Positions 43,422 to 61,800 of a stretch of 64,000 nt of DNA are shown here, piece by piece. Position numbers and translations under genes: made by a program. The notes under the pieces are model-generated. The model made no database searches. It was given only the letters and a program-made list of their open reading frames with translations, and was not told the DNA's origin. Within the stretch, counting starts at the first letter, position 1; each line of letters starts with the position of its first letter. The DNA comes from Nocardia vinacea (lineage in GTDB: Bacteria; Actinomycetota; Actinomycetes; Mycobacteriales; Mycobacteriaceae): assembly GCF_035920345.1 (NCBI RefSeq), contig NZ_CP109149.1, positions 5,642,001 through 5,706,000 on the forward strand. The letters run 5' to 3'.

Positions 43422-43733
43422 TGGACTTCCAATCATTTCCGCTTTCTCTTGACGTTCCCCGACAAACGGCACCGGATAGCTATAATGATGCTCCGCGTAT
43501 TTGATTGAGTCGACAACTTATTTGCGGAATGACAGTCGGTTTTGCTCCCCTAGGGGATAGGAAATCGGATTCCGATCGAATAACATCGAGAGGTCGATTC
43601 GATTTCTCCGCCGAGCGCATCGTCGAACTACGCACAGCGCCACCGAACGCGGAAAGTCGATCGCCGATCGGGGGCGAAATTCGGGTACCGCACTACTCGA
43701 TACTTCGCGGCTCGACGGGCCCACACTCATTGC
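43422..43733. promoter_or_regulatory. 312-bp AT-richer divergent region before the DUF2235 cassette
   Basis: No gene. The base composition is clearly lower in GC than in the flanking genes. A perfect TATAAT at 43481-43486 with TTGACG at 43449-43454 points toward the plus strand, although the 26-bp spacing is too long for a classical pair. It marks the left border of the three-gene cassette. Confidence 0.4.
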
Positions 43734-44777
43734 GTGTCCACCGGTAAGAACATCGTCATCTGTCTCGACGGAACAGGCAATCAGGTCCGCGCCAGCGGTA
43801 GCACCAATGTGGTCCGCCTGTTCGAGATGCTGGACCTGAGCGATGCCACGAAACAGATCGCCTACTACGACCCGGGTGTCGGTACCTTCAGCTCTCAGGG
43901 CGCATGGACGCCACCGGCCCGGTGGTTCTCGCGAGTGCTGGGCCTGGCGGTCGGCCGCGGGCTGCGTTCGAATCTCGCCGAGGCATACTCCTACTTGATA
44001 GCGCACTGGCAGGCGGGCGACCGGGTGTTCATATTCGGATTCAGCCGCGGCGCGTATACCGCGCGAGCGCTGGCTGGATTACTGCATGAGCCCGGCCTGC
44101 TGCGTCCGGGTAGTGAGAATCTCGTCCAGTACGTCGTCAGCGCCTACACCCGCAAGACCACGAACTGGCCGGAACTTCGCCGATACGCGCGCACCTTCTG
44201 CTCGAAGTCCTCGGACGGCGACTTCTCGATTCCCATCGAATTCCTCGGCGTATGGGACACGGTCAAAGCGGCCGGGCTGCTGCGCTGGGAACTGAAATGG
44301 CCCTACACCAGGCAGGTGCCCAATGTGGTGAAGGCACACCACGCTGTTTCGATCGATGAGAAGCGCCGTCCGTACGAGGAATATCTGGTCACTCCGAAGG
44401 GAAACCGGCCGGTGCTCACCGAGGCCTGGTTCGCCGGTGTCCACTCCGACGTCGGCGGTACCTTCGAGGACGATCCGAAGCTGGCCGAAATCGCGCTCAA
44501 GTGGATCACCGACGCTGCGCTCGAGGCCGGATTGCTGCTGCGCGCCGGGACGTACGTGGACGCCTGCGCGATAAGCCCCGAGCATGCGAATGGCAGCGTG
44601 CACCGAATGGGCTGGATCTGGGCGCTGCTCACCTACCGCCGACGGAAGGTTCCGGCGGGTGCTCGGGTGCACGCGAGCGTGCGCTCACGGTGCGAGAGCG
44701 ACACGACGTATGGAAAACGAATCCCCCCGGATGTCATGTGGGAAGACGAGCAATGGACGAAACTGCGAATTCAGTAG
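43734..44777 (+). CDS. DUF2235 alpha/beta hydrolase (T6SS lipase-like catalytic domain)
   Basis: A 347 aa single-domain protein. The start is IVICLDGTGNQ, the nucleophile S104 is in FGFSRGAYTARALAG, the acid D175 is in FLGVWDTVKA and the base H237 is in WFAGVHSDVGG, all as in DUF2235/Tle1-type phospholipases. No signal peptide or membrane segment, so it is cytoplasmic. The family is known both as T6SS effectors and in other contexts; no T6SS genes are near. Start is GTG. It overlaps the next gene by 25 bp and leads a three-gene cassette. Confidence 0.82.
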   Translation: MSTGKNIVICLDGTGNQVRASGSTNVVRLFEMLDLSDATKQIAYYDPGVGTFSSQGAWTPPARWFSRVLGLAVGRGLRSNLAEAYSYLIAHWQAGDRVFIFGFSRGAYTARALAGLLHEPGLLRPGSENLVQYVVSAYTRKTTNWPELRRYARTFCSKSSDGDFSIPIEFLGVWDTVKAAGLLRWELKWPYTRQVPNVVKAHHAVSIDEKRRPYEEYLVTPKGNRPVLTEAWFAGVHSDVGGTFEDDPKLAEIALKWITDAALEAGLLLRAGTYVDACAISPEHANGSVHRMGWIWALLTYRRRKVPAGARVHASVRSRCESDTTYGKRIPPDVMWEDEQWTKLRIQ

Positions 44778-46633
44778 AGTACGCGAGCGGAATCTGTCCA
44801 CCGGCCCGGCGCAGACTGCGTACCTTCGCATTCGACCCGATGTCGACGCGGCTGTCCGGCCAGTTCCTCACACTGGATATCCCGTTCGAACACATCCGGG
44901 GACCGGGCCCCGACGGCGCACTCGTGCAGGTGGTCGACTTCGACGCCAGCCGCAATGCCTGGTACGAGCCGGTCGACCTCGACGATCCATTTGTCTTGGC
45001 GCAGGACGGAATTCGACCGACAGAAACCGATCCCCGTGCGCATCAACAGATCGTCTATGCGGTCGCGATGAGCGTCATCGAGCGATTCGAACGGTTCATG
45101 GGACGTCGATTCCGGTGGCACCGAGACCAGATCCTGCGTCTGGTCCCGCACGCTTTCGAGGGGCAGAACGCCTATTTCGATCCGCGGCGCCGCGCCTTGC
45201 TGTTCGGCTATTACCAAGCCGATGCCGAGAATCCGGGCGCCAATCTCCCCGGACAGGTCATCTTCACCTGCCTGTCGAGCGACATTATCGCGCACGAAGT
45301 GACACATGCGATCGTGCATCGAATCCGGCGGCTGTACAACGAATCCACAAACCGGGATGTCTTTGCCTGGCACGAGTCCGTCGCCGACTTGATCGCGCTG
45401 TTCCAGCATTTCGCCCACCGAGACCTAGTGCTCGACGCAATCGCGACCACGTCGGGAGTACTCGAGAAAAGCGCCGGGCTGCTGGACCTGGCCAGGGAGT
45501 TCGGTGAGTCCACCGGACGCGGCGCGGCCTTGCGTTCAGCGATAAAGGACCGCAGCCGCACACCCGAACGATTTCGCGCGGCACAGGAGCCGCACGAACG
45601 CGGTGCGTGTTTCGTGGCGGCGGTATTCGACGCGTACTTGGACGCCTACCAAAGCGCGATCGCGGATCTGCTGCGGATCGCCAGTGGCGGCACCGGAGTG
45701 CTGCCGCCCGGTCGCCTGCACCCGGATCTGGTATCTCGGATCGCCGACGAGGCGGTCAAGACCGCGGACCGAATGCTCGGGATGGTCGTTCGGAGTTTCG
45801 ACTATCTCCCGGTATTGGACGTCACATTCGGCGATGTCGTCCGGGCGATCGTCACCGCGGATCGCGGTCTTTATCCGGAGGATCGGCAACACCTGCGCAG
45901 CACGCTCGTGGAGGCGCTGCGGCGGCGCGGCATCTGGCCGGTAAGCGTCACTTCGCTGACCGATGAAGCGCTGGTCTGGCAGCGGCCGGACACCCGGCTG
46001 AACCTCGGCGACGGCGATCACCCGGTGGATTTGTCCCGGGTCATCCTGTCCGCATCGAAGGATCTCGACCCGATCGGTACTCCGGGTGAATTGCGTACAC
46101 CCGCCGTACCCGACGGCAACGGCACCTCCGGTCTGGACAGTTCTTCGACCCGACATTCCGTTTTCGAGCAGGTGGCCCAGGAGCTCATCGGATGGGCCAA
46201 CGCGAACGCCGCCCGAATCGGACTGGATCCGAACTTCAAAATCAGCTGCGAGGGAATCCACGTCTCGTACCGAATGGCGGGTGATCGGTTGCCGCGTCCC
46301 GAATTGGCCATCCAGTTGCTGCAGCGTCGCGCGGATCTCGAAGATGCGGGGCAAGGGAAGCAACAACCGGTGATCCGCGCCGGTACCGCGCTCGTCGTCA
46401 GCGCCGACGGGAGCGTGGACTATGTGATCGCCAAGCCGCTGCCGTTCAGCGACGAGTCGTCGGCGGCTGACGACACTTCCATCGCGTTCCACCGGGCGGG
46501 CAAGCTGCGGCTGGCCGCGATGCGGGAATGGTTCGACCGACTGGAAGCCGACGACGCGCTGAGCGCATGGACGGCCGAGCACGCAATCCACCGCCTCGAC
46601 TTCGCGGCGATCCACGCGCTAACAGCTGAGTAG
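44753..46633 (+). CDS. HExxH zinc metalloprotease-like protein (gluzincin type)
   Basis: A 626 aa protein. The zinc motif is HEVTH at 181-185 in DIIAHEVTHAIVHR, and the third ligand is probably E208 in AWHESVAD, a gluzincin arrangement (HExxH...ExxxD). The N-terminal 170 residues prepare the active site; the C-terminal 350 residues are of unknown fold. No signal peptide is seen, so the protease would act inside the cell. The ATG lies inside the DUF2235 gene, so translation is coupled. I recognise no named family for the full length. Confidence 0.7.
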   Translation: MDETANSVEYASGICPPARRRLRTFAFDPMSTRLSGQFLTLDIPFEHIRGPGPDGALVQVVDFDASRNAWYEPVDLDDPFVLAQDGIRPTETDPRAHQQIVYAVAMSVIERFERFMGRRFRWHRDQILRLVPHAFEGQNAYFDPRRRALLFGYYQADAENPGANLPGQVIFTCLSSDIIAHEVTHAIVHRIRRLYNESTNRDVFAWHESVADLIALFQHFAHRDLVLDAIATTSGVLEKSAGLLDLAREFGESTGRGAALRSAIKDRSRTPERFRAAQEPHERGACFVAAVFDAYLDAYQSAIADLLRIASGGTGVLPPGRLHPDLVSRIADEAVKTADRMLGMVVRSFDYLPVLDVTFGDVVRAIVTADRGLYPEDRQHLRSTLVEALRRRGIWPVSVTSLTDEALVWQRPDTRLNLGDGDHPVDLSRVILSASKDLDPIGTPGELRTPAVPDGNGTSGLDSSSTRHSVFEQVAQELIGWANANAARIGLDPNFKISCEGIHVSYRMAGDRLPRPELAIQLLQRRADLEDAGQGKQQPVIRAGTALVVSADGSVDYVIAKPLPFSDESSAADDTSIAFHRAGKLRLAAMREWFDRLEADDALSAWTAEHAIHRLDFAAIHALTAE

Positions 46634-46640
46634 GTACGAA

Positions 46641-47888
46641 ATGTCAACGCCGACAACGATTGCCGTCCGGATGTACAACGTCGGATTCGGCGACGCGTTC
46701 ACCGTGACGGTGCGGCGCAAGAACGAAACCTGGCGCATGTTGGTCGACTGCGGCGTACACAGCCAGGGCCGGGCACGCCCGATCCGCGACTCCGTACAGG
46801 CCATCATCGCCGACCTCACCGAGGCCGATCCGCACCACCGACCGCACCTTGACATCGTGGTCGCCACCCATCACCACGCCGATCACATCACCGGATTCGC
46901 CTGCCGGGAATGGGAACAGGTGACCGTGGACGAGGTGTGGGTGCCATTCGTCGAGGACGCCGACGACGAAGACGCACGACGGATCCGCAGCGGGCAGGTC
47001 GATGCCGCGAACGGTCTGCTCGCGCTGATCGAGCGGCGCGGCAACGGGCGTCGCATGTCGGCGACCGTCGAACAGGCACAGGCATTCGCGGTGAACTCGC
47101 AGGGCAATGCCGCCGCGACCGATCGACTCCTCGGCCGCAATTTCAGCGGATTCGCCGCACCCCACCGGGTGCGGTACCTGCCGAGCAAGGACGAAACCGA
47201 GAATACGATCGCCGTGGATCGCGTCGGGCTCGTCGCACATATCCTCGGGCCGCCGCGCGATGCCCGATTCCTGAAGCGCATGGATCCGCCTGCGAAGCAA
47301 TCGTGGCCCTTGGTGCGCGCGAGCGCGTCCGCGGAGAGCGACGGCAGGCCGACGCCGCTGTTCAATCGGCGCTATATCGCGCGGAATACCCTGCCGGACC
47401 GCCTGCTTCAGGCGAAGGCGGATCTGGACCTGGACGAACTCGTCGACGATGACGATCGACTGCTGCGCGCCGCCTCGATTCTCGAGAACGCGGTCAACAA
47501 CACCAGCGTCTTCTTCGTGCTGGATATCGCCGGAACCCGGTTGCTATTTCCGGGAGACGCGCAGCAGGGTGCATGGGAGCACGTCCTGTCCGATCCGCGG
47601 AATGTCGATCTCGTGTCCCGCCTGGCCTTCTACAAGGTCGGACATCACGGTTCGCACAATGCCACACCCCGGCGTTTCGTCGAAAAAGATTGGCAGACAG
47701 AAGGTTACGCAATGATTCCGTTCGGACTCGTCAAGCGCTGGGCGAAGACCATTCCGAAGAAATCGCTGGTCGATTCGCTGGTGAGTCACGATCACACCGT
47801 CATCCGAGCCGACACGGCTCCCGATGTCGTCCCCGGCAAGATTGCCGTGAACGGTGACCTGTGGTCCGAGGTAACGCTCACCGCCTGA
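46641..47888 (+). CDS. MBL-fold hydrolase (ComEC/Rec2-like)
   Basis: A 415 aa metallo-beta-lactamase-fold protein. The metal motif is ATHHHADHITG with H77, H79, D81 and H82; further ligands are in LLFPGDAQ (D306) and YKVGHHGSHN (H335, H336). This is the ComEC/Rec2-associated MBL layout without the membrane channel part. Such soluble forms occur in nuclease, RNase and conflict systems. It begins 7 bp after the protease stop, so the three genes form an operon. Its 3' end overlaps the MFS remnant by 11 bp. Confidence 0.82.
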   Translation: MSTPTTIAVRMYNVGFGDAFTVTVRRKNETWRMLVDCGVHSQGRARPIRDSVQAIIADLTEADPHHRPHLDIVVATHHHADHITGFACREWEQVTVDEVWVPFVEDADDEDARRIRSGQVDAANGLLALIERRGNGRRMSATVEQAQAFAVNSQGNAAATDRLLGRNFSGFAAPHRVRYLPSKDETENTIAVDRVGLVAHILGPPRDARFLKRMDPPAKQSWPLVRASASAESDGRPTPLFNRRYIARNTLPDRLLQAKADLDLDELVDDDDRLLRAASILENAVNNTSVFFVLDIAGTRLLFPGDAQQGAWEHVLSDPRNVDLVSRLAFYKVGHHGSHNATPRRFVEKDWQTEGYAMIPFGLVKRWAKTIPKKSLVDSLVSHDHTVIRADTAPDVVPGKIAVNGDLWSEVTLTA

Positions 47889-48549
47889 TCCTCATCCCTG
47901 ATAGCTGATCGCATCCTCGAGATCGCGGATACGAGTGATGCGAGCAGCGATCAGCCAGCACGGCCAAGGGTGCCGTCAGCAGCTGGACGAGCCAACCGGC
48001 CAGGGCCGGACCCGCTACCTGTGACACCGATTGGCTCGCCTCCATCGCCGCCTGACCGGCTGTCAGTCGACCGCGCGGCACGACCATGGGTACCAGCGAC
48101 AACATGGCGATATCGGCGAAAACCGCGAATGCCCCGGTCACGAACGCCACCGCCGACAACAGCGCGAACGTCAGCAGGCCCATCGCATCGGCCAACGGCA
48201 CCACCGACAGCGTCAATGCCTGACCGATGGCACAGACCAGGCAAACCTGCCGCCGCGGCAGCCGGTCGATCCACACCCCGGCGGGCAGCCCCACGAACAG
48301 GTAGGGCGCACGGCCATAAGCGACCAGCACTCCCATCTGCCATGCACTCGCCCCCAGCGTGATCACGGCGATCAGCGGAAGCGCGAGAATAGTGACCTGC
48401 GAGCCGACCAATGAGACGCTGTGGCCCGACCAGAGCAGCACAAAAAATCGGTTCCGCCGTAGCGGCGTCTCGCTGCTATCGGTCAACGCGGCGACGCCGG
48501 TCGAGCGTGGATCGCCAGGGGCCGAACCGTCATCGCGCACCACCGACAC
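47878..48549 (-). pseudogene. MFS transporter, 3'-truncated
   Basis: The first about 200 residues are a typical MFS_3-type transporter (FVLLWSGHSVSLVGSQVT, YLFVGLPAGVWIDRLPRR, ALAGWLVQLLTAPLAVLAD), six hydrophobic segments. After LAVLAD the frame leaves the family (RCSHHSYPRSR) and stops 11 bp inside the MBL gene, so the second half of the transporter is missing. The break coincides with the end of the three-gene cassette, which suggests that the cassette inserted here or that a deletion joined them. Confidence 0.75.
47904..47955. repeat. hairpin at the cassette/MFS junction
   Basis: GCTGATCGC (47904-47912) and GCGATCAGC (47947-47955) pair perfectly, with a nested GCATC/GATGC. It lies inside the broken part of the MFS gene just after the MBL stop and could act as terminator for the cassette or be a scar of recombination. 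Confidence 0.4.
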
Positions 48550-49946: not shown

Positions 49947-50942
49947 TCAGAAGATGAACTGGCTGCCGTAGGCGGTGGTCTGCGCAATTCCCACCGGAGT
50001 ACCCACCGAGGCGGTGATGAAGGGGACGGCCGATACCGGTGAGGCACACTGGCCGACGTTCAACGCGGCGTTGTTGAAAATGAAGTGGTACGGGAACACG
50101 GTCTTTTCGTCCAGGTTGGCCGTCACTGTCGTGACGGTGGTGATCTGGCCCGGTGCCAAAGTGGCTTCCAGGAGCTCTGTCAGGCCCAGGGTCCCGCCGA
50201 CAGTCGGTCCGAGGCTCGCGCTGGGCGGGCTGGCCGAGGCACTCGGGGATGTGGTTTCGATACTCGGCGAGGTGGTGGCGGCGCTTTCGGAAGTGGTGGC
50301 AGCGCTTTCGGAAGTGGTAGCAGCACTTTGGGAAGTGGTAGCAGCACTTTGCGAAGTGGTAGCAGCACTTTGCGAAGTGGTAGCAGCACTTTGCGAAGTG
50401 GTAGCAGCACTTTGCGAAGTGGTAGCAGCACTTTGCGAAGTGGTAGCAGCACTTTGCGAAGTGGTGGCGGGACTCCGGGAAGTGGTGGCGGCACTAGGTG
50501 TTGTGGGCACCGGCGCGGACGTCACACTTGGCAGGCGGGCGGCAACGTTCGACTGGCTGAATTCGGGGGAAATGCTGGCCAACAACCCCTGATTGGGATC
50601 TATTCCGACGGTGAAGCCATTATCCAGACTGATCGCGCAGCCGACGACGAACCCCGCGACGGCCTGGCCGGACGTCACCCCACCGCCCTCCACGCTCAGC
50701 GAGTAGTCGCCGGACAACTGCGCGGCATGCGCGAATGTCATGAGGTAGTTCGGAGTCCGGTCGCCGGCCGGGTCCACTCTGACGTCGTGCACCGCTGCCG
50801 TCAGATGAATCCCGGCACCTGATACGTCCGCACCGGGCGGCGGTTGGGCTCGGCTCAGCTCGATGCCACCGGGCCGCAGCACCACGACAGCCAGGACGGT
50901 CGCGACCACACCGGTCGCGACAACGATGAATGGAGGTCGCAT
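49947..50942 (-). CDS. MspA family porin with inserted Ser/Thr repeat
   Basis: A 331 aa protein. It has an N-terminal hydrophobic signal (RPPFIVVATGVVATVLAVVV), an MspA-like first half (FVVGCAISLDNGFTVGIDP) and second half (LLEATLAPGQITTV, VFPYHFIFNNAALNVGQC, TAYGSQFIF). MspA forms outer-membrane (mycomembrane) channels. Between the halves lies an insertion of about 80 residues made of AATTS(Q/E/P/R)S heptads, absent from normal MspA, encoded by a 21-bp tandem repeat. This may decorate a surface loop. Order on the minus strand: porin, then the ASKHA-like gene. Confidence 0.8.
   Translation of the reverse strand: MRPPFIVVATGVVATVLAVVVLRPGGIELSRAQPPPGADVSGAGIHLTAAVHDVRVDPAGDRTPNYLMTFAHAAQLSGDYSLSVEGGGVTSGQAVAGFVVGCAISLDNGFTVGIDPNQGLLASISPEFSQSNVAARLPSVTSAPVPTTPSAATTSRSPATTSQSAATTSQSAATTSQSAATTSQSAATTSQSAATTSQSAATTSQSAATTSESAATTSESAATTSPSIETTSPSASASPPSASLGPTVGGTLGLTELLEATLAPGQITTVTTVTANLDEKTVFPYHFIFNNAALNVGQCASPVSAVPFITASVGTPVGIAQTTAYGSQFIF
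50268..50493 (-). repeat. 21-bp in-frame tandem repeat within the porin gene
   Basis: The plus-strand unit is GAAGTGGTAGCAGCACTTTGC, 21 bp, in about eleven copies; the central six are nearly identical and the outer ones diverge. It encodes seven TTSQS, two TTSES and single SPS/SRS heptads. The length is a multiple of three, so copy number change would keep the frame: a probable variable-number repeat. Confidence 0.85.
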
Positions 50943-51218
50943 ACCTGATCCTGTTTCGAATCGGATGTACACCAATGGCGGCGAAATCGCTTGAACAGAC
51001 CCACTTGGCTAACGACTGGCAAGCATAGCGGGATTGCGGCCCGGCACATTGAGATAGAGGGCGTGTCGCGCATCCGCAGCGCGCAGCCACAGATTTGCTG
51101 GATGATTCGAAAATTAACCCGACCCGGCCGTGCGCGCCGCTTAAGCTAACTGCGCCGCAACATGCGACAAACACTCAGGTCGACAAAATCTACGTGGTAG
51201 ACGTCCAGGAGGTACGGA

Positions 51219-51957: not shown

Positions 51958-54900
51958 TCATCGATCCAGTTGTGCGTTGAGGATCCGGGCGATCTGGGCA
52001 ACCGCACCCGGTTCGGTCATTGCGAGGTGGGCCGCATCGATGTCGAAAGTCGAAATCTGCCCGCGGACCACCTGCGCCCATCCCTCGTGACCCGCAGCAT
52101 CGGATCGCCTTTCACGTGTCGCGGTGAAGTAGAGCATGTCGCTGTCGAATACCGCGGGCCGCCAGACGCCGGCCGCCCGGATCGCCAGGTTGTAGGCGTC
52201 GGTCAGGCGCTCGATCGTTGCGGCGTCGATGCCGAGGCTGTCCCCCAGGTGCCGTTCGATCAGGTCGGCGGCCTCCTCGGCGGTCGCATCGGGGCGCACG
52301 AAATCGACGCCCATGACCGGGCCGAGATTGCTGATCAGTTCGCCGGCCGTGACGGCGGAGAGCGTCGACTCGTCGACACCGCCCACCTCGGCGTCCAACA
52401 GTGCCAGTAGCGCAACCTGTTCACCGGCGGCGCGCATCTCGACGGCAATGGCATGGGCGATCACACCACCCAGCGACCAGCCGAGGAGGTGATAGGGGCC
52501 GTGTGGCTGAACCGCGCGAATCTCGTCGAAGTAGCGTTCGGCCATTTCTTCGATCGACGTCGGACCGGGCACCTCGCCGCCGATTTGTGGCGCCTGAAGG
52601 CCGTAGATCGGTCGACCGTCGGAGAGGTAACGGTCGAGTGTGCGGTAACACCACGACAGGCCGACGGCCGGGTGGATACAGAACAGTGGTGGTCGTTCAC
52701 CGCCGGTCCGGATCGGCAGCAGCACGTCGAAGCCGACAGTCCGGTCGACGGTGGGCCCGGAGCGCATTCCGGATTCGATCCGCTTTGCCAGGTCGGCCGG
52801 GCAGGGATCCGACAGCATCCAGCTGATCGGAACCTCGTAGTCGAGTTCTTTGCGCAACTCGCTCACCACTTGCACCGACTTCAGCGAGTTACCACCCAAT
52901 GTGTAGAAGTCGTCGTCGGCGCCCACCCGATCCATGCCGAGTACCGCTCCGAAGGCCCGTGCAACCTCCGCCTCCAGCCACGACGAGGGCTCCCTGAATT
53001 CCCTTAGCGCGAGCACCGGCTCCGGTAACCGCGTGCGGTCCAGCTTGCCCGACGCGGTGAGGGGCACCGTATCGAGCACCATCACCGTGGTGGGCACCAT
53101 GTAGTCGGGCAGTTCGGTTGCCGCGTGCGCCATGACCACCGCGGTGTCGACAGTGGCGCCGGCGGCAGGCACCAGGTAGCCGACGAGGTGGTCCACCGCA
53201 CCGGTGGAGTGCACCACAGCGATCGCCCGGGCGACGCTCGGGTGCTCGGCGAGCACTGCCTCGACTTCACCGAGTTCGATACGCAGGCCGCGCAGCTTCA
53301 CCTGGAAATCGGTGCGTCCCAGGTATTCCAATTCGCCGGTGTGGCGCCAGCGCACCAAGTCGCCGGTGCGGTACAGGCGCCTGCCGTCACCGTACGGGTC
53401 GGGCACGAACCGTTCCGCGGTCAGGCCCGGACGTGACCGATAGCCGCGCGCGAGCTGGGCGCCCGCCAAGTACAGCTCCCCGGCAACACCGGGCGGTACC
53501 GGATGTAGCCGGTTGTCGAGCACATACGCCCGCGAGTTCCATACCGGTGTGCCTATCGGCATGCTCCCGCTGTCGGCCTCGGTCACCCGATGCGCGGTCG
53601 CGCACACGGTGAACTCGGTCGGCCCGTACAGATTGTGCAACTCGATCCCGGGCACTATTCGCTCCACCGCGGCCACCACCTCGGGGCCGAATGCCTCACC
53701 GCCCACCAGGAGCGTCCGCATCGACTCCAGCGACTCCGCAGGCACCGCGTCCGCAAGAACCGCCAGCATCGACGGAACGAACGCGGCGATCGTGACCCGT
53801 TGGGTGGCAATGGTTTCGGCGAGATAGGCCGGGTCGGTATGCCCGTCGGCTCGGGCGATCACCATCCGCGCCCCCATCGCCAGTGTCGCGAACAGCTCCC
53901 ACACCGACATGTCGAACGTGGCCGGGGACTTCTGCAGCACCACGTCATTCGGCGTCAGTGCGTAGCTCTCGTTGACCCACCGCAGCTGGTTCACCACCGA
54001 ACTATGCAATACCGCAACACCTTTCGGTCGCCCGGTCGACCCCGAAGTGAAGAGCACGTACGCGATGTTGTGCGGTCGCAGCGGTGCGAGCCGATCGGCG
54101 TCGGTGACCGGCGCGTCATCGAATCCGGACAGCTCCAGCCCATCGAGGGACGACAGCTCCAGCACCGGCGCGGCGACCGACAGCAGGTACGCGATGCGGT
54201 CGGCCGGAAGGTCCGGATCGATCGGCACGTACCCACCGCCGGCAGCGTGCACTGCGTACATGGCGGTGACTTGGTCCAGTGAACGCCGCATCCGCAGCGC
54301 CACCAACGACTCCGGCCCCACTCCACGGGAGATCAACCACCGCGCCAACCGGTATACGCGAGACGCGAATTCCGCATAGGTCAGCGACTGTTCGCCGAAT
54401 GTCACCGCGGGCCGGTCCGCATGCGCCTGCACGGAGTGGGCGAAGACCGAGGCGAGCGTCTCGCCGGGAGGGAGCCCGCGATCGGTCGAATTCCACTGCA
54501 CCAGAACGGCTTCCCGCTCATCGGCACCGAGCAGATCCACCTCGTGCACCGGCTGTGCCGCATCGGTGACCAGTGCGCCGAGCAACCGCAGCAGGCGATC
54601 GACGATCGTGGTCACCGTCGTCGCGTCGAAGAGGTCGCTCGCATAGGTCACCGCGCCGCTGATGCCGGCCGGGGCACCGGCGGAGTCGTAGGAATCCGAT
54701 ACCGCGATCTGCAGATCGAACAGTGCGGTGTCGGTGTCGGCCGTCATTGCCGACACCGAGAGCCCCGGAAGTTCGAACTGGGCCCCGCCGATGTTCTGGA
54801 ATGCCAGCATCACCTGGAACAGTGGATGGTGGGCGTGCGACCGCACCGGGTTCAGCTCCTGCACCAGCCGCTCGAACGGAACATCGGCGTGCCCGAACGC

Positions 54901-55875
54901 GGCCAGATCGGTTCCGCGCACATGCTCGAGCAGCTGGGTGAACGTCATCCCCGGGGTCAACCGGGTCCGCAACACCAGGGTGTTGACGAACATCCCGACC
55001 AGATCGTCGAGCTCCGGCTCGCCGCGTCCCGCATACGGAGTGCCGATCGCGATGTCGTCGGTATCGGCCAGCCGGGCCAACGTGGCCGCCAGCGCGGCGT
55101 GGAAGACCATAAACAGTGTCGTGTTGTGTGCCCGCGCGACCCGCTGCAATCCCGCGTGCAGATCGGCGCCGACGGTTATCGGTACGCTCGCGCCCGTGTG
55201 GGTCTGCACGGGCGGGCGCGGTCGGTCGGTCGGCAGCTCGAGCAAAACCGGAAGTTCCGCCAATTCGACTGTCCAGTAGTCGATCTGGGCGCGTAGCAGC
55301 GAGTCGGGATCGTCTTCGGTCCCCAGCACGGTCCGCTGCCAGATCGCGTAGTCGGCGTACTGCACCGGCAGCGGCGGCCGGCTCGGTGTCTCCCCGACAA
55401 GGTGTGCCGTGTACGCGGCCATCATGTCCTGTGCCAGCGGGCCGAGCGATGCCCCGTCGCAGGAGATGTGATGCACCACCACGGCCAGGATCCACTCGTT
55501 CGGCCCGAGCTCGAACAACCGGAGTCGCACCGGCGCCTCGACAGTCACATCGAACACTGTCGAGACGAACGCCGACAACGCTTCGGCCAGTTCATATTCC
55601 GCGACCGAAGTCACGGTCACCGGCGCGATCGCCTCGGCGGTGGGAAGGACAACCTGCGACGGCTCGCCCTCCCCATACGGGTATACGGTCCGCAGTACCT
55701 CGTGCCGGGTCAGCACATCCTCGACGGCCGCGCGCAGCGCGTCGAGATTCAGCTTTCCGGACAGCCGTAGCACGATCGGAATGCTGTAGGCCGCCGAGCC
55801 GGGGTCGAGCCGGTTCAGGAACCACATTCGCTGCTGTGCGTACGACAGGGGAATTCGCTGCGTCCGTTGCTGTGC
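51958..55875 (-). other. NRPS module 4: C4, A4, PCP4 and TE
   Basis: C4 has VVHHISCDGAS (H2824, H2825, D2829). A4 is of a different clade from A1-A3 (ATFDMSVWELF, YGPTEFTVCAT) with pocket D3344, M3345, W3348, A3387, L3412, G3414, L3438, V3446, C3447 (DMWALGLVC). PCP4 carries S3686. The thioesterase has nucleophile S3823 in GWSLGGVIAH, acid D3850 in LLALLDAE and base H3972 in DIDAAHLAM, so product release is complete in this gene. Confidence 0.85.
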
Positions 55876-58800
55876 GGTCAGCGCCACCCGACCGGTGTCG
55901 GCCCGCGATTCGGCGCGCGCGGCCAACCGCGCGACCGTCGGCGCCTCGAAAATCATCGACGCCGGGATGGTCGCGTCGAGGGCGGCACCGATCCGCGCGG
56001 CTAGGCGGGTGGCCACCAGGCTGTTGCCGCCCAGTTCGAAGAAGTCGTCGTCGGCGCCTACCGGACTATCGATGCCGAGGACCTCGGCGAATACGCCGGC
56101 CACTATTTCCTGCACCGGCGATGCCGGGGCCCGGAATCGCTTGGCCTCGACGACGGGTGCGGGCAGGGCCGCGCGGTCGAGTTTTCCATTCGGCGACAGG
56201 GGGATCGTGTCCAGGATCATCACCGCGGCGGGCACCAGGTACGACGGCAACACCTCGGCCAACGACGCCCGCAATTGTTCGCCCGACAAGCTCACCCCCG
56301 CTTCCGGCACCGCATAGGACACCAATAGCACCGAACCGGTGTCCTCCCGCCGCGCCACGGTGACCGCGTATGCGACATCCGCCCGCGCGCTCAACACCGC
56401 GTCGATCTCGCCGAGCTCGATACGGTAACCGCGGATCTTTACCTGGGAATCGTTGCGCCCCAAAAATTCCAGGGCACCGTCGGTATTCCAGCGCACCACA
56501 TCACCCGTGCGATACATGCGATGTCCCGGTTCCCCGAACGGGTGCGCCACGAACCGCGCCGCGTTCGTCGCAGCCCTGTTCAGGTACCCGCGCGCCAGCG
56601 CAGGACCCGCCAGATACAGCTCTCCGGCCACCCCCACCGGCGTCGGCTGCAACCGGGCATCCAAAACCAGCGTCTGTACTCCCGGCAGCGGGGTACCGAT
56701 CGTCGGCCGGTCGGCCGGTCGCAGCGCACCCGTCGCCGTGGCGGCGATCGTGGCCTCGGTCGGCCCGTACAGCACCTGGAACTTCCTGGCGCCCGCGATG
56801 TCGGTGCCCGCCCATCGGCTCACCAGATCCGCCGGGACCTCCTCACCACCGGACATCACCAGCCGCAAGTCGTCCAGCCCGGCCGGATCCACCGAGGCGA
56901 GCGCGGCCGGGGTCAGAAAGGCGTGGGTGACTCGCTGTACGCGCATGAGCTCGGCCAGCTCGCCGCCGCCGTAGATCCCTGTCGGCGCCACGACCAGTAC
57001 AGCGGCCCGGCTGACCGCGATCAGGATCTCCATCAGTGCGGCGTCGAACGACGGCGACGCGAAGTGCAAGACCCTGGACGTGTGCCGAAGCTCGCGGTCG
57101 GCGCGCCACGCCGAGACGAAGTCCGCGATGCCGGAATGTGTGACGGCGACGCCCTTCGGCACGCCGGTCGATCCGGAGGTGAAGATCACGTAAGCGACAT
57201 CTGAGGCCCGCAGTGGCCGCGGCCGCTCGTCATCGCCGATCGGGCCGCTGGCCGACGCGTCGATCCGCGCGGCGACGGCCGGGTCGTCGAGCACGATCCA
57301 GTTCACCGAATTGGGCACCTTGGCACGCGCCGACGACACCGTAATTCCCAGCGTCGCATCGGAATCCGAGACCATCTGCTCGATCCGGCTCGCGGGATAG
57401 CCCGGGTCCACCGGCACGTACGCCGCGCCCGTCTTGACCACCGCCCACCACGCGACGACGGATTCCAGCGACCGCGCTGCCGCCACCAGCACCGGATGTT
57501 CCGGTCCGGCGCCACGGCGGATCAGTACCCTCGCCAGCCGGCTGGACCGCTCGTCCAGCTGCGCGTACGACAACGTGACATCCCCCGCGACGACGGCGAT
57601 ACCGTCGCCACTGTCCCGCACGGCCGAGGCGAACACGTCCGGCAGCAATCCGGAGGGCTCCCGCGCCGCCACGGTATGCGCGCCCACCCGCGACGTGAGC
57701 GCCGAGCGCTCGTCGGCTTCCAGCCAGTCGATATCCCCGATCACTACGGCCGGATCGTCGGCGACGGCTTCCAGCACCCGCACCAACCGTCGGACGATCG
57801 CCGCCGCGGTCGCCTCGTCGAACAGATCCCGCGCATAGGTCATCGTTCCCGAGATGCCCTGCACCACACCGGCATTGCCGTACGAATCGGACAGCACCAG
57901 TTGCAGATCGAACTGGGTCGCCCCGGTATCCACATCCACTCGGGTGACCCGGACACCGGGCAGCGTGATATCGGCCGTCGACACGTTCTGGAACGCGAGG
58001 GCCACTTGGAACAACGGATGCCGCGCCGCCGATCGTTCCGGGCTCAACGCCTCCACGACCTGCTCGAACGGCACGTCCGTGTGCTCGAACGCAAGCAGGT
58101 CCGTCTCGCGAGTGCGCATCAGCAACTCGGCGAACGGCTCGCCCGTATCCACCCGGGTCCGCAATGCGAGGGTGTTCACGAACATGCCCACCAGATCGTC
58201 CAGAGCGGGCTCGCCGCGCCCTGCGACCGGCGTGCCGATCACTACATCATCGCTGTCACCGAGACGCCCCAATACCGTTGCCAGCGCCGCATGCATCACC
58301 ATGAACAGCGACGACCCGCGCGACCGTGCCACCGCGAGCAACCGCTCGTGCAGCCTGGCATCGATCTCCACCGGAACCCGGCTTCCCGACAGCGATGCGA
58401 CGGCCGGGCGTGATCGGTCCGCGGGCAGTTCCAGCCGGTCCGGTGCACCCGCGAGTGTCGAGCGCCAGAACTCCAGCTGCGCGGACATCAACGACTCCGG
58501 ATCGTCCTCGGTCCCCAGCATCTGCCGTTGCCACCACGCGAAATCCGCGTACTGCACGGCGAGCGGCTCCCATTCCGGCGCACGCCCGGCCAGTCGCGCG
58601 GCATACGCCGCCATCACGTCACGGGCCAGCGGCCGCATCGACTGACCATCGCCTGCGATGTGATGGACCACCAGCACCAGCAGGAATTCTCCTGTGTCAC
58701 CGTCGAGCTCGAACAATCCCACTCGCATCGGCACTGCGGCCGTCACATCGAATCCGCGCCGCACGAACTCACCCACCACATCCGGGACCGAATCCGCGGG

Positions 58801-61800
58801 CACCCGCACCGGCTCGACCGGCACCGCGGGCTCGTCGAGGACGACCTGCCGCGGCTCACCGGAGACTTCCGGATATATCGTCCGCAGTACCTCGTGACGT
58901 GTCATCACATCCGCGAGTGCGGCCGCCAGCGCCGTGGTGTCCAGCCGTCCCGACAGCCGCAGCATCACCGGGATGTTGTATGCCGCAGAGTCCGGCTCGA
59001 ACCGGTTCAGGAACCACATCCGCTGCTGTGCCAGCGACAGCGGCACGGGGTCGGGGTGCACTCCGGGCAGCAGGGGCAACCGGCCCCCACCGCTGAGTGT
59101 CCTCGCGAGCGCGGCCAATTCGCCGACGGTCGGCGCCTCGAACACCGACCGCACCGGCACGCGCACGTCCATGGCCGCACCTATGCGTGCCACCACCAGC
59201 GAGGCGCTCAGCGAATCGCCGCCCAGCGCGAAGAAGTCGTCGTCGACTCCCACCTGGTCCACGTCGAGTACCTGCTCGAATGTCCGCGCGACCAACTCTT
59301 CCAACCCCGGCGATGGCGCCCGGAATTCGCGGGCGACCGCAACCGGTTCGGGCAACCGCTCGCGATCCAGCTTCCCGTTGGCGGTCAGCGGCACCTCGTC
59401 CAGCACCACCACCGCGGACGGCACCATGTACCGGGGCAACGCCTCGGCCAGCGCCGCACGCAACTCCTCGCCCGATACCTCCGCCCCGGGCGCGGGCACG
59501 ACATAGGACACCAGCAGCACCGGTCGTCCCTCATCGCTCCGCGGCACGGTGACGGCGTATGCCACATCCGCACGCGCACCCAGCACCGCGTCGATCTCCC
59601 CCAGCTCGATCCTGGTGCCGCGCACCTTCACCTGAAAATCGTTGCGCCCCAAGAACTCCATCTCACCATCAGCTGTGCGACGCACCATGTCACCGGTCGC
59701 GTACATGCGCTGACCCGGCTCCCCGAACGGGCATGCAACGAACCGCGCCGCAGTCAACCCCATCCTGGCGACGTACCCATGGGCCAGGCCGGGGCCGAAC
59801 AGGTACAGCTCGCCCGCGACACCGGCTGGGACGGGCCGCAACCAGGTATCCAGGACCACGGCCGCGACCGGGCCGACCGGCCTGCCGATCGTGATCGCGG
59901 AACCCGGTGCCAGAGCGTCGGAGGTAGCCCAGATAGTGCATTCCGTCGGCCCGTAGACATTGACCATGGCGCGATGCGGCGCCCACCGCTCGACCAGTTC
60001 CGGTCCGACCGGCTCGCCGGCCGCTGCCAGCACGCGCAGCCCGTCGAGACCATCGCACGGGACTGTCGCCAGCGCTGACGGGGTCACTATGGCATGCGAA
60101 ATACCTTCTCGCCGGATCAGATTCGCCAGCTCGGGACCGGCGTAGACATCGGCAGGCGAGACGACGAGCCGACCGCCCGAGCCGTGCGCCATCAACAGCT
60201 CGAACACCGAGGCGTCGAAGCTGGGCGAGGCGACCTGCAGCACCACCGACGTCGGGTCGACGCCGAGTACTCGCCGCTGAGCCGCGACGATATCGACCAA
60301 GCCGCGATGGCTGACGAGAACGCCTTTGGGCGTTCCGGTCGACCCGGAGGTGTAACTCACGTACGCGGTCTGATCCCGCCGAATCGGCCCGCCGCGTTCG
60401 GCATCGGTGATCGGCGCGGCAGGGACCGAGTCCAGGGCGCCGAGCGTCTGCTCCGTGTCGAGGATCAGCCAGTCGGTGCCATCCGGAAGGTGCTTCCTGG
60501 TGGACGTATCGGTAAGCCCGAGGATGGTTTTCGAGTCCGATAGCAGAAATTCGATGCGGTCCGATGGCAGGGCCGGATCAATCGGCAGGAAGGCGGCGCC
60601 CGTCTTGGCCACGGCCCACAGTGCCACCGTCGCCGCAAGGGATCGCGGAAGCACAGATGCGACGACCTGTCCCCGCCGGGCGCCGTGCCGCAGCAGGACC
60701 CGAGCCAGACGTGCAGAGCGCTCGTCGAGCTGCCGGTAGGTCATGGCGGCCGTACCGCACCGCACCGCGATCGCGTCGAGTTCGGCGGCAGCGGACGCGG
60801 TGAGTATGCGGTCCAACGTGTCCGGAATCGCAACTTCCGCGACCGAATCCGGCCACAACGGCCCCGGTTCCTCGTCGAGCGGCAGCTCGCCCAGCCGCAC
60901 ATCCGCGTTCGCGGCGATCCGGCACAGCAACTCGACGAAGCGGTCGAGGATGCGACGCGCCGAGGCGGTGTCGAATGCACGCTCGTGGAATCGGAGGATG
61001 ATCCGCAGCCCCTGTGCCTCGCCGTCCTCGGACTGCTTCGGTTCCACAGCCAGGATCAGCGGGTACGGCGTCGCGTCCACACCACTGAGTTCGTCCACCC
61101 GCAGGCCCGCCGAATCGACGAGTTCCTGCAGCGCCGTCCGGTCGACGGGGAACGACTGGAAAGTGATCGCGGTATCGAAGAGTTCGGGCAGGCCGACGCT
61201 GCGGTGAATCTCGGGCAGGCCGATATGGTGATGCTCCAGCATGCGCGCGTGCCGCGCTTGAATGCCGGTCAGCAACTCACGCACCGTCATGGTGGGTTCG
61301 AGCGGGACTCGCACCGGAACCGTGGTCAGGAACATGCCGAGCGTCTGATCGACTTGCGGCAACTCCGGGGGCCGGCCCGACACCGCGGCGCCGAAGATCA
61401 CATCGGTCTCACCGGTCGATACGCGCAGATTCAAGGCCCAGGCCGCGGCCACCGCCGTATTGATGGTGACGGCCGCTTCCGCCGCCACTCGACGGAGTTC
61501 TGCGAAACGATCCGCGGTGAGTTCGGCCGCGACCTCGGCGGCGGATACGGAGCCCGCCGCAGCGGCTTCGCGGGACACCCGGGTGGGTGCGTCGACATCC
61601 GAAAAGGCTTGCGCCCATGCCGCTTTGGACGCAGCGCTGTCCTGTCGACCCAGCCAGGACAGATATTCGCGGTAGGAGGGAGCGGGCCCGGCGGAGTCGA
61701 TATGTGCGGGAGATCCGTAGTAGTCGAGCAGTTCTCGCATCAGCAACGGCATCGACCAGCCATCCAGGATCACATGGTGATTCGTCACGAGCAGCCGGAA

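Follow-up and report, generated by a model that had tools for sequence, protein, structure and literature searches.

In the bacterial defense systems Hachiman and AVAST, a pro-nuclease of the metallo-β-lactamase (MBL) fold carries disordered insertions that are cut at conserved isoleucines by a trypsin-like partner protease, and HamM, once cut, degrades DNA (PMC12799240). Another example is canu, in which a caspase complex turns CanC into a nuclease and conserved Gly residues are proposed as the sites (PMC12799240). Those MBL-protease loci of Hachiman, AVAST and canu that were assayed act against phages, and additional homologues of the nuclease are partnered with proteases from various other families (PMC12799240). 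Here we describe a variant of these nuclease-protease pairs from a 64,000-nt stretch of Nocardia vinacea DNA (NZ_CP109149.1, positions 5,642,001-5,706,000, forward strand), hereafter the window, whose numbering is used throughout. This pair of a metalloprotease and an MBL-fold hydrolase, accompanied by exchangeable lipases, is real, widespread and undescribed in the open-access literature searched. No metalloprotease-MBL-lipase system was found there, subscription papers and preprints lying mostly outside the search. The words metalloprotease, lipase and patatin are absent from the main text of PMC12799240, although its fig. S2 on other protease families may include this clade, and the passages seen of PMC12419801 do not describe the unit.

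The locus consists of three plus-strand genes. The first (43734..44777, 347 residues) encodes a DUF2235/Tle1-like serine hydrolase, probably a phospholipase, with a complete PF09994 domain (241.6 bits, cut-off 27; E 1.5e-71). It overlaps by 25 bp the second gene (44753..46633, 626 residues), which encodes an intracellular gluzincin protease of predicted thermolysin/fungalysin fold (residues ~20-406) extended by a C-terminal part. After a gap of 7 bp follows the third gene (46641..47888, 415 residues), encoding an MBL-fold hydrolase that resembles the ComEC nuclease and contains an insertion. Sequence searches of solved structures gave nothing useful for the locus. The open reading frame (ORF) list bears out this layout, which an earlier sequence-only reading of the window had described, and conservation in the alignments of relatives agrees with its claim that each gene retains complete catalytic residues. 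Its proposal of one coupled three-gene unit held for the linkage, but the trio is not fixed: what is conserved is the protease-MBL pair, with the lipase as a replaceable module.

Evidence for this core comes from scanning a single genome for each species and keeping the best 80 of 589 protease relatives; with 17 plasmid records and one phage record they form a set of 98 loci. Judged by record titles, the 80 contig loci come from 12 phyla and include many metagenome-assembled genomes; one Rhodococcus locus (L027) was mis-sorted and one lacks a phylum. In 77 of the 80 the MBL gene lies directly downstream of the protease gene in the same orientation. The spacing is mostly between -23 and +31 bp, and the larger values in L034, L044 and L086 accompany breaks or the choice of start. 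Of the three loci without an MBL gene, L041 and L080 end with the contig, while L031 lacks the gene; overall, the pair is intact in 95/98 loci. Protease and MBL distances are strongly correlated (Mantel r 0.89, n = 90, against a largest value of 0.07 in 2,000 permutations), and the nearest neighbor is the same row for both proteins in 55/90 cases. This agreement shows co-inheritance, not function. Because the ORF caller gave several wrong-strand shadows, locus counts were taken from profile searches; a protease-MBL fusion called in L055 proved to be an artefact, the genes lying in different frames. Among 7,998 candidates scored, 4,396 are related to the protease at E ≤1e-3, and the 120 matches listed are mostly unnamed or annotated as hypothetical proteins. 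Two distantly related pairs stand in tandem in L030 and L040, the latter with a stand-alone subtilase between them.

The MBL enzyme carries the motifs HHHADH, GDAQ and GHHGSH, and its metal-ligand residues H77, H79, D81, H82, D306, H335 and H336 are conserved in 90/90 sequences. Its predicted fold is closest to that of the ComEC nuclease, with 23% identity and ~150 extra residues. The enzyme has an insertion of low model confidence (residues ~222-252, window 47304..47396, plus strand), variable in length and poorly conserved, which is a candidate gating loop; residues 225-242 are the sole segment of the enzyme with a predicted local distance difference test score (pLDDT) below 50. Within this loop Phe241 (codon 47361..47363, plus strand) is the candidate cleavage-site residue. 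It is F in 91/93 sequences and in 88/90 of a second alignment, and it is the only position within 217-252 with an entropy below 0.5 bit. The enzyme matches known families weakly and partially, with E values of 2.6e-11 for Avs1a, 6.3e-11 for 6A-MBL and 6.4e-18 for LmuA. Its scores of 42.9 and 42 bits are far below the NCBIfam cut-offs of 420 for AVAST type 1 (NF041809) and 220 for 6A-MBL (NF058524), and it is therefore a member of neither.

The protease has no family match in Pfam, NCBIfam, PADLOC or PHROGs. Its predicted model adopts a thermolysin/fungalysin fold in which both the HExxH motif and the downstream Glu are present. The zinc motif HEVTH (45293..45307, plus strand; H181, E182 and H185) and the third ligand E208 (45374-45376) are invariant in 74/74 sequences. 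The rows of this alignment (74) and of that of the MBL enzyme (93) were selected by hand from the homologues and loci listed. Compared with M36 fungalysins and M4 thermolysins, the protein differs in having no Pfam match and an extra C-terminal part, for which searches with the whole model, effectively comparing residues 16-406, returned no usable fold match. By eye, the sequence shows no hydrophobic leader or evident signal peptide. Several relatives bear additional domains: an N-terminal subtilase (S8) is fused to the protease in L058, L062, L084, L085 and L108, and is also annotated in L100 and L107; a TPR-S domain is found in L071 and an EVE domain in P0116, with a weak match in L018. A different zinc protease, astacin/matrixin-like, stands beside the pair downstream in L014 and L034 and upstream in L020 and L021, with hemopexin repeats in Mycobacterium.

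Lipase genes lie within 500 bp of the pair in 40/80 contig loci (19 DUF2235, 19 patatin and 2 α/β-hydrolase-like) and in 10/18 plasmid or phage loci (5 patatin, 4 DUF2235 and 1 phospholipase D, PLD), in varying orientation relative to the pair. Pfam confirms patatin and PLD in the representatives L016, L075, L090, L097 and L099, whereas the α/β-hydrolase-like genes have only matches under the cut-offs (L046) or no Pfam match (L056). In 20 DUF2235 sequences, the window's own and 19 from related loci that do not all stand beside a pair, the serine of the GFSRG motif (S104) is present in 19/20, and D175 and H237 in 20/20. Lipase genes are 73-fold enriched near the pair (50 genes per 95,552 bp against 9 per 1,256,785 bp), a figure that is biased upwards because the profiles derive mostly from these neighboring genes; as a less biased yardstick, there are 2 DUF2235 matches in the entire host genome. 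The exchange of lipases was followed on a quickly built tree with 90 proteases, comprising 89 of the 98 loci and the window (L011, L031, L034, L038, L041, L044, L080, L086 and L112 having breaks or missing genes, or not being included). With absence counted as a state, the lipase label changes 26 times against a shuffled mean of 39.3, and is therefore partly inherited. Ten changes remain when lipase-bearing rows alone are considered, and branches with good support require no fewer than 6 changes for DUF2235 and 14 for patatin, each scored against all other rows. For instance, two Mycolicibacterium pairs that are near neighbors on the tree (L057, L063) differ in the presence of patatin.

In Nocardia the trio moves as a unit, and neither outcome that would have refuted the sequence-only reading was found, that is, separation of the three genes in other genomes or a core locus conserved in all Nocardia with a metabolic neighbor. 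The protease is present in 8/148 Nocardia genomes, the window's own included, and the MBL gene occurs in the same 8, a linkage far beyond chance. A close DUF2235 relative (78-100% identity) is also found in these 8, although in one (G009) it has decayed to residues 1-102 with two stops; the remaining Nocardia DUF2235 matches (E ≤1e-15) are at most 40% identical. In N. pseudovaccinii (L011) the DUF2235 gene has an internal deletion and the protease-MBL pair is whole. Broken copies of the pair also occur, with protease and MBL genes in pieces in L007 (G072) and the protease in two pieces in N. seriolae (L034). A chance trio is ruled out by the co-occurrence in Nocardia and by the linkage of MBL after protease beyond this genus, and a core Nocardia locus by its presence in only 8/148 genomes, with flanks that differ between lineages.

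As a DNA unit, the cassette spans 43658..47888, delimited by blastn comparison with its counterparts in four distant Nocardia. The part of the window matched is 43658-47881 in L139, 43676-47881 in L140, 43743-47884 in L141 and 43740-47888 in L142, in each case the trio only; no flank homology to the window was found in these four (blastn, pieces of at least 300 bp, E ≤1e-20). Since the homology ends at the trio and the flanks are unlike, the trio is a cassette in different surroundings. One further downstream stretch is common to L140, L141 and L142. The gene on the left flank has relatives in 95/148 Nocardia genomes, and the two flank genes find their best matches in G134 at sites millions of bases away from its cassette. 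An AT-richer left border had been noticed from the sequence and is present, the 234 bp left of the first gene having 55% G+C against 66% for the window. At the right border, the truncated gene of the major facilitator superfamily (MFS) is likewise a real fragment (47878-48549, minus strand), overlapping the MBL stop, matching MFS_1 positions 1-150 of 347 and at most 33% identical to other MFS matches in the host genome. As a marker of the cassette edge it does not stand, however, because it is absent at this place from N. vinacea (L013) and N. anaemiae (L012), which have the same flanks as the window and whose next shared segment begins within ~120 bp after the MBL gene.

The pairing of a soluble MBL enzyme with a protease, which the sequence-only reading had named as a theme of predicted bacterial conflict systems, ties the cassette to the mechanism published in PMC12799240. 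With the trypsin-type pairs described there (Hachiman HamM/HamAB, AVAST type 1, Lamassu and DRT), it shares an MBL enzyme of ComEC-nuclease type, a protease partner, a putatively disordered insertion with a conserved residue, and movement of the pair between contexts. The differences are considerable: the protease here is thermolysin-fold and mostly stand-alone rather than a trypsin-like domain fused to a defense enzyme, its gene lies upstream of the MBL gene, the conserved residue is Phe and not Ile, one disordered loop is seen instead of two, and a lipase partner is present. The cassette shares with canu (KaeCanABC; PMC12799240) a nuclease gene downstream of the protease gene and the occurrence of tetratricopeptide repeat (TPR) and other accessory domains around it; the canu protease, however, is caspase-type with an immunoglobulin-like fold, and the sites proposed there are conserved Gly residues. 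The MBL models NF041809 Avs1a, NF058524 6A-MBL, PADLOC LmuA, RTasMBL and PDC-M48B are related, with weak partial matches only. Tle1-like DUF2235 phospholipases (PF09994) share the full catalytic domain of the first gene, which differs from them in being co-inherited with an intracellular protease and an MBL enzyme, and no secretion-system gene occurs among the flanking genes of the window that were looked at.

The cassette holds the same parts list as the Hachiman, AVAST and canu pairs, with a metalloprotease replacing trypsin or caspase, and we lean towards its being a regulated self-damage module, most likely for abortive-infection phage defense with a gated MBL nuclease. Linkage, predicted fold and the conserved motif are what the data show, whereas cleavage, nuclease activity, the trigger, the part played by the lipase and defense itself are proposed. 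The MBL enzyme would start out as a pro-nuclease, inactive because a disordered insertion lies over or perturbs its active site. A signal of infection or damage would be relayed to the protease by the C-terminal part or, in relatives, by the fused EVE, TPR-S or subtilase domains. Cleavage of the insertion by the protease, at the conserved (Leu/Pro)-Phe241, may then release nuclease activity, while the lipase, DUF2235 in this case, would damage the membrane in parallel, perhaps also under control of the protease. Infected cells would thereby stop or die before phage release. A broader proposal is possible but rather doubtful, namely a cross-phylum immune module in which a thermolysin-like initiator protease unlocks the gated MBL nuclease at a conserved Phe and has an exchangeable phospholipase (DUF2235, patatin, PLD, perhaps α/β-hydrolase) under its control as well, so that DNA and membrane are destroyed simultaneously, with EVE, TPR-S and subtilase domains as sensors. 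If the gated-nuclease reading is right, a third, unrelated protease class would be joined to a gated MBL effector of the known type, and proteolytic unlocking of a pro-nuclease would have evolved or been re-wired several times. Phe241, a single residue, makes the mechanism directly testable, and the repeated exchange of lipase type offers natural replicates for asking what the lipase contributes.

The genomic context bears on whether such a module would act against phages. The protease is carried by 46 plasmid records, of which 29 are predicted to be conjugative; 17 of the 46, hand-picked from 30 listed, were opened, and 16 of these are annotated. Defense-type neighbors by annotated name lie within 7-8 kb in 8/16 annotated plasmid loci: NACHT (L095), ThiF (L096, L102, L104), a cyclase of the cyclic oligonucleotide-based antiphage signaling system (CBASS; L097, L109), SIR2 (L100), and DUF1837 with a DEAD helicase (L097, L098). 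PADLOC models confirm the cyclase of L097, a SAVED effector in L109 and a ThsA-like SIR2 in L100, together with E1/JAB domains in L102 and a weaker E1 match in L104. On the Rhizobiaceae plasmids L097 and L098, HamA and HamB (PADLOC, E ~1e-145 and 0) lie ~0.1 kb downstream of a patatin-protease-MBL cassette. The HamA of L097 retains the GESK motif described in PMC12799240 and therefore looks like an ordinary Hachiman neighbor, not the fused type.

Other results weigh against a role in phage defense. The remaining 8/16 annotated plasmid loci (L099, L101, L103, L105-L108 and L111) have no defense-type neighbors by name. In a PADLOC test of up to 6 neighbors at each of 24 mainly actinobacterial loci, one of them from Bacillota (L024), 124/127 near genes were compared with 124/140 control genes from actinobacterial genomes, and no clear enrichment of defense genes over the control was seen. 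At E ≤1e-20 the near genes include one member each of BrxL, PglZ, PD-T4-6, mad6 and C3a189 (among the matches listed, 25/41 families), and the controls one member each of the helicase-type GajB and RTasHel (among the matches listed, 25/28 families). The picture for defense islands is thus mixed, with half of the hand-picked annotated plasmid loci positive by name and the neighbors of the mainly actinobacterial loci not clearly above the control. Among phage records only 2 have a match to the protease, one being weak, and a two-pattern scan of IMG/VR yielded no confirmed protease. At E ≤1e-20 the protease is found in 4/296 phylum-wide genomes including the window's own. One record with a protease-MBL pair (L112, MT836994.1) is an unannotated 9.5-kb 'Bacteriophage sp.' entry from human faeces.

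Alternatively, the same biochemistry may serve a purpose other than phage defense, as a stress, plasmid-competition or developmental death program or in inter-strain antagonism. The unenriched neighborhoods of the mainly actinobacterial copies and the 46 plasmid records point that way, but the defense neighbors on half of the annotated plasmid loci, HamAB and CBASS cyclases included, and the anti-phage activity of the published MBL-protease loci (PMC12799240) make it an unlikely alternative. Less probable still, the MBL enzyme may be a phosphodiesterase of phospholipid or teichoic-acid head groups, so that the whole unit attacks lipids under regulation by the protease; against this, its family matches are to Avs1a, 6A-MBL, LmuA-type and ComEC_Rec2 models, all weak, and its identity is higher to ComEC (23% against 16-17%). 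That the genes are mere hitchhiking neighbors is highly improbable: 48/98 loci (40/80 contig and 8/18 plasmid or phage loci) lack a lipase within 500 bp and one Nocardia DUF2235 gene is internally deleted, but the pair is kept in 95/98 loci, mostly with short gaps or overlaps, and cassette-sized homology lies between unlike flanks.

Further genes occur around the pair in the window and elsewhere. To the right of the cassette, the window encodes an MspA-family protein (49947-50975, minus strand, E 5.1e-17) with an inserted tandem repeat of SAATTSQ type, followed by a 3,994-residue ORF (51958-63942, minus strand) judged by eye to be non-ribosomal peptide synthetase-like. The window DNA rightwards from ~51467 is common to L012 and L013. 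In two unrelated genomes, related genes lie near the pair (L030:4794-6161 and L053:6800-8119), that of L030 encoding a tyrosinase-domain protein.

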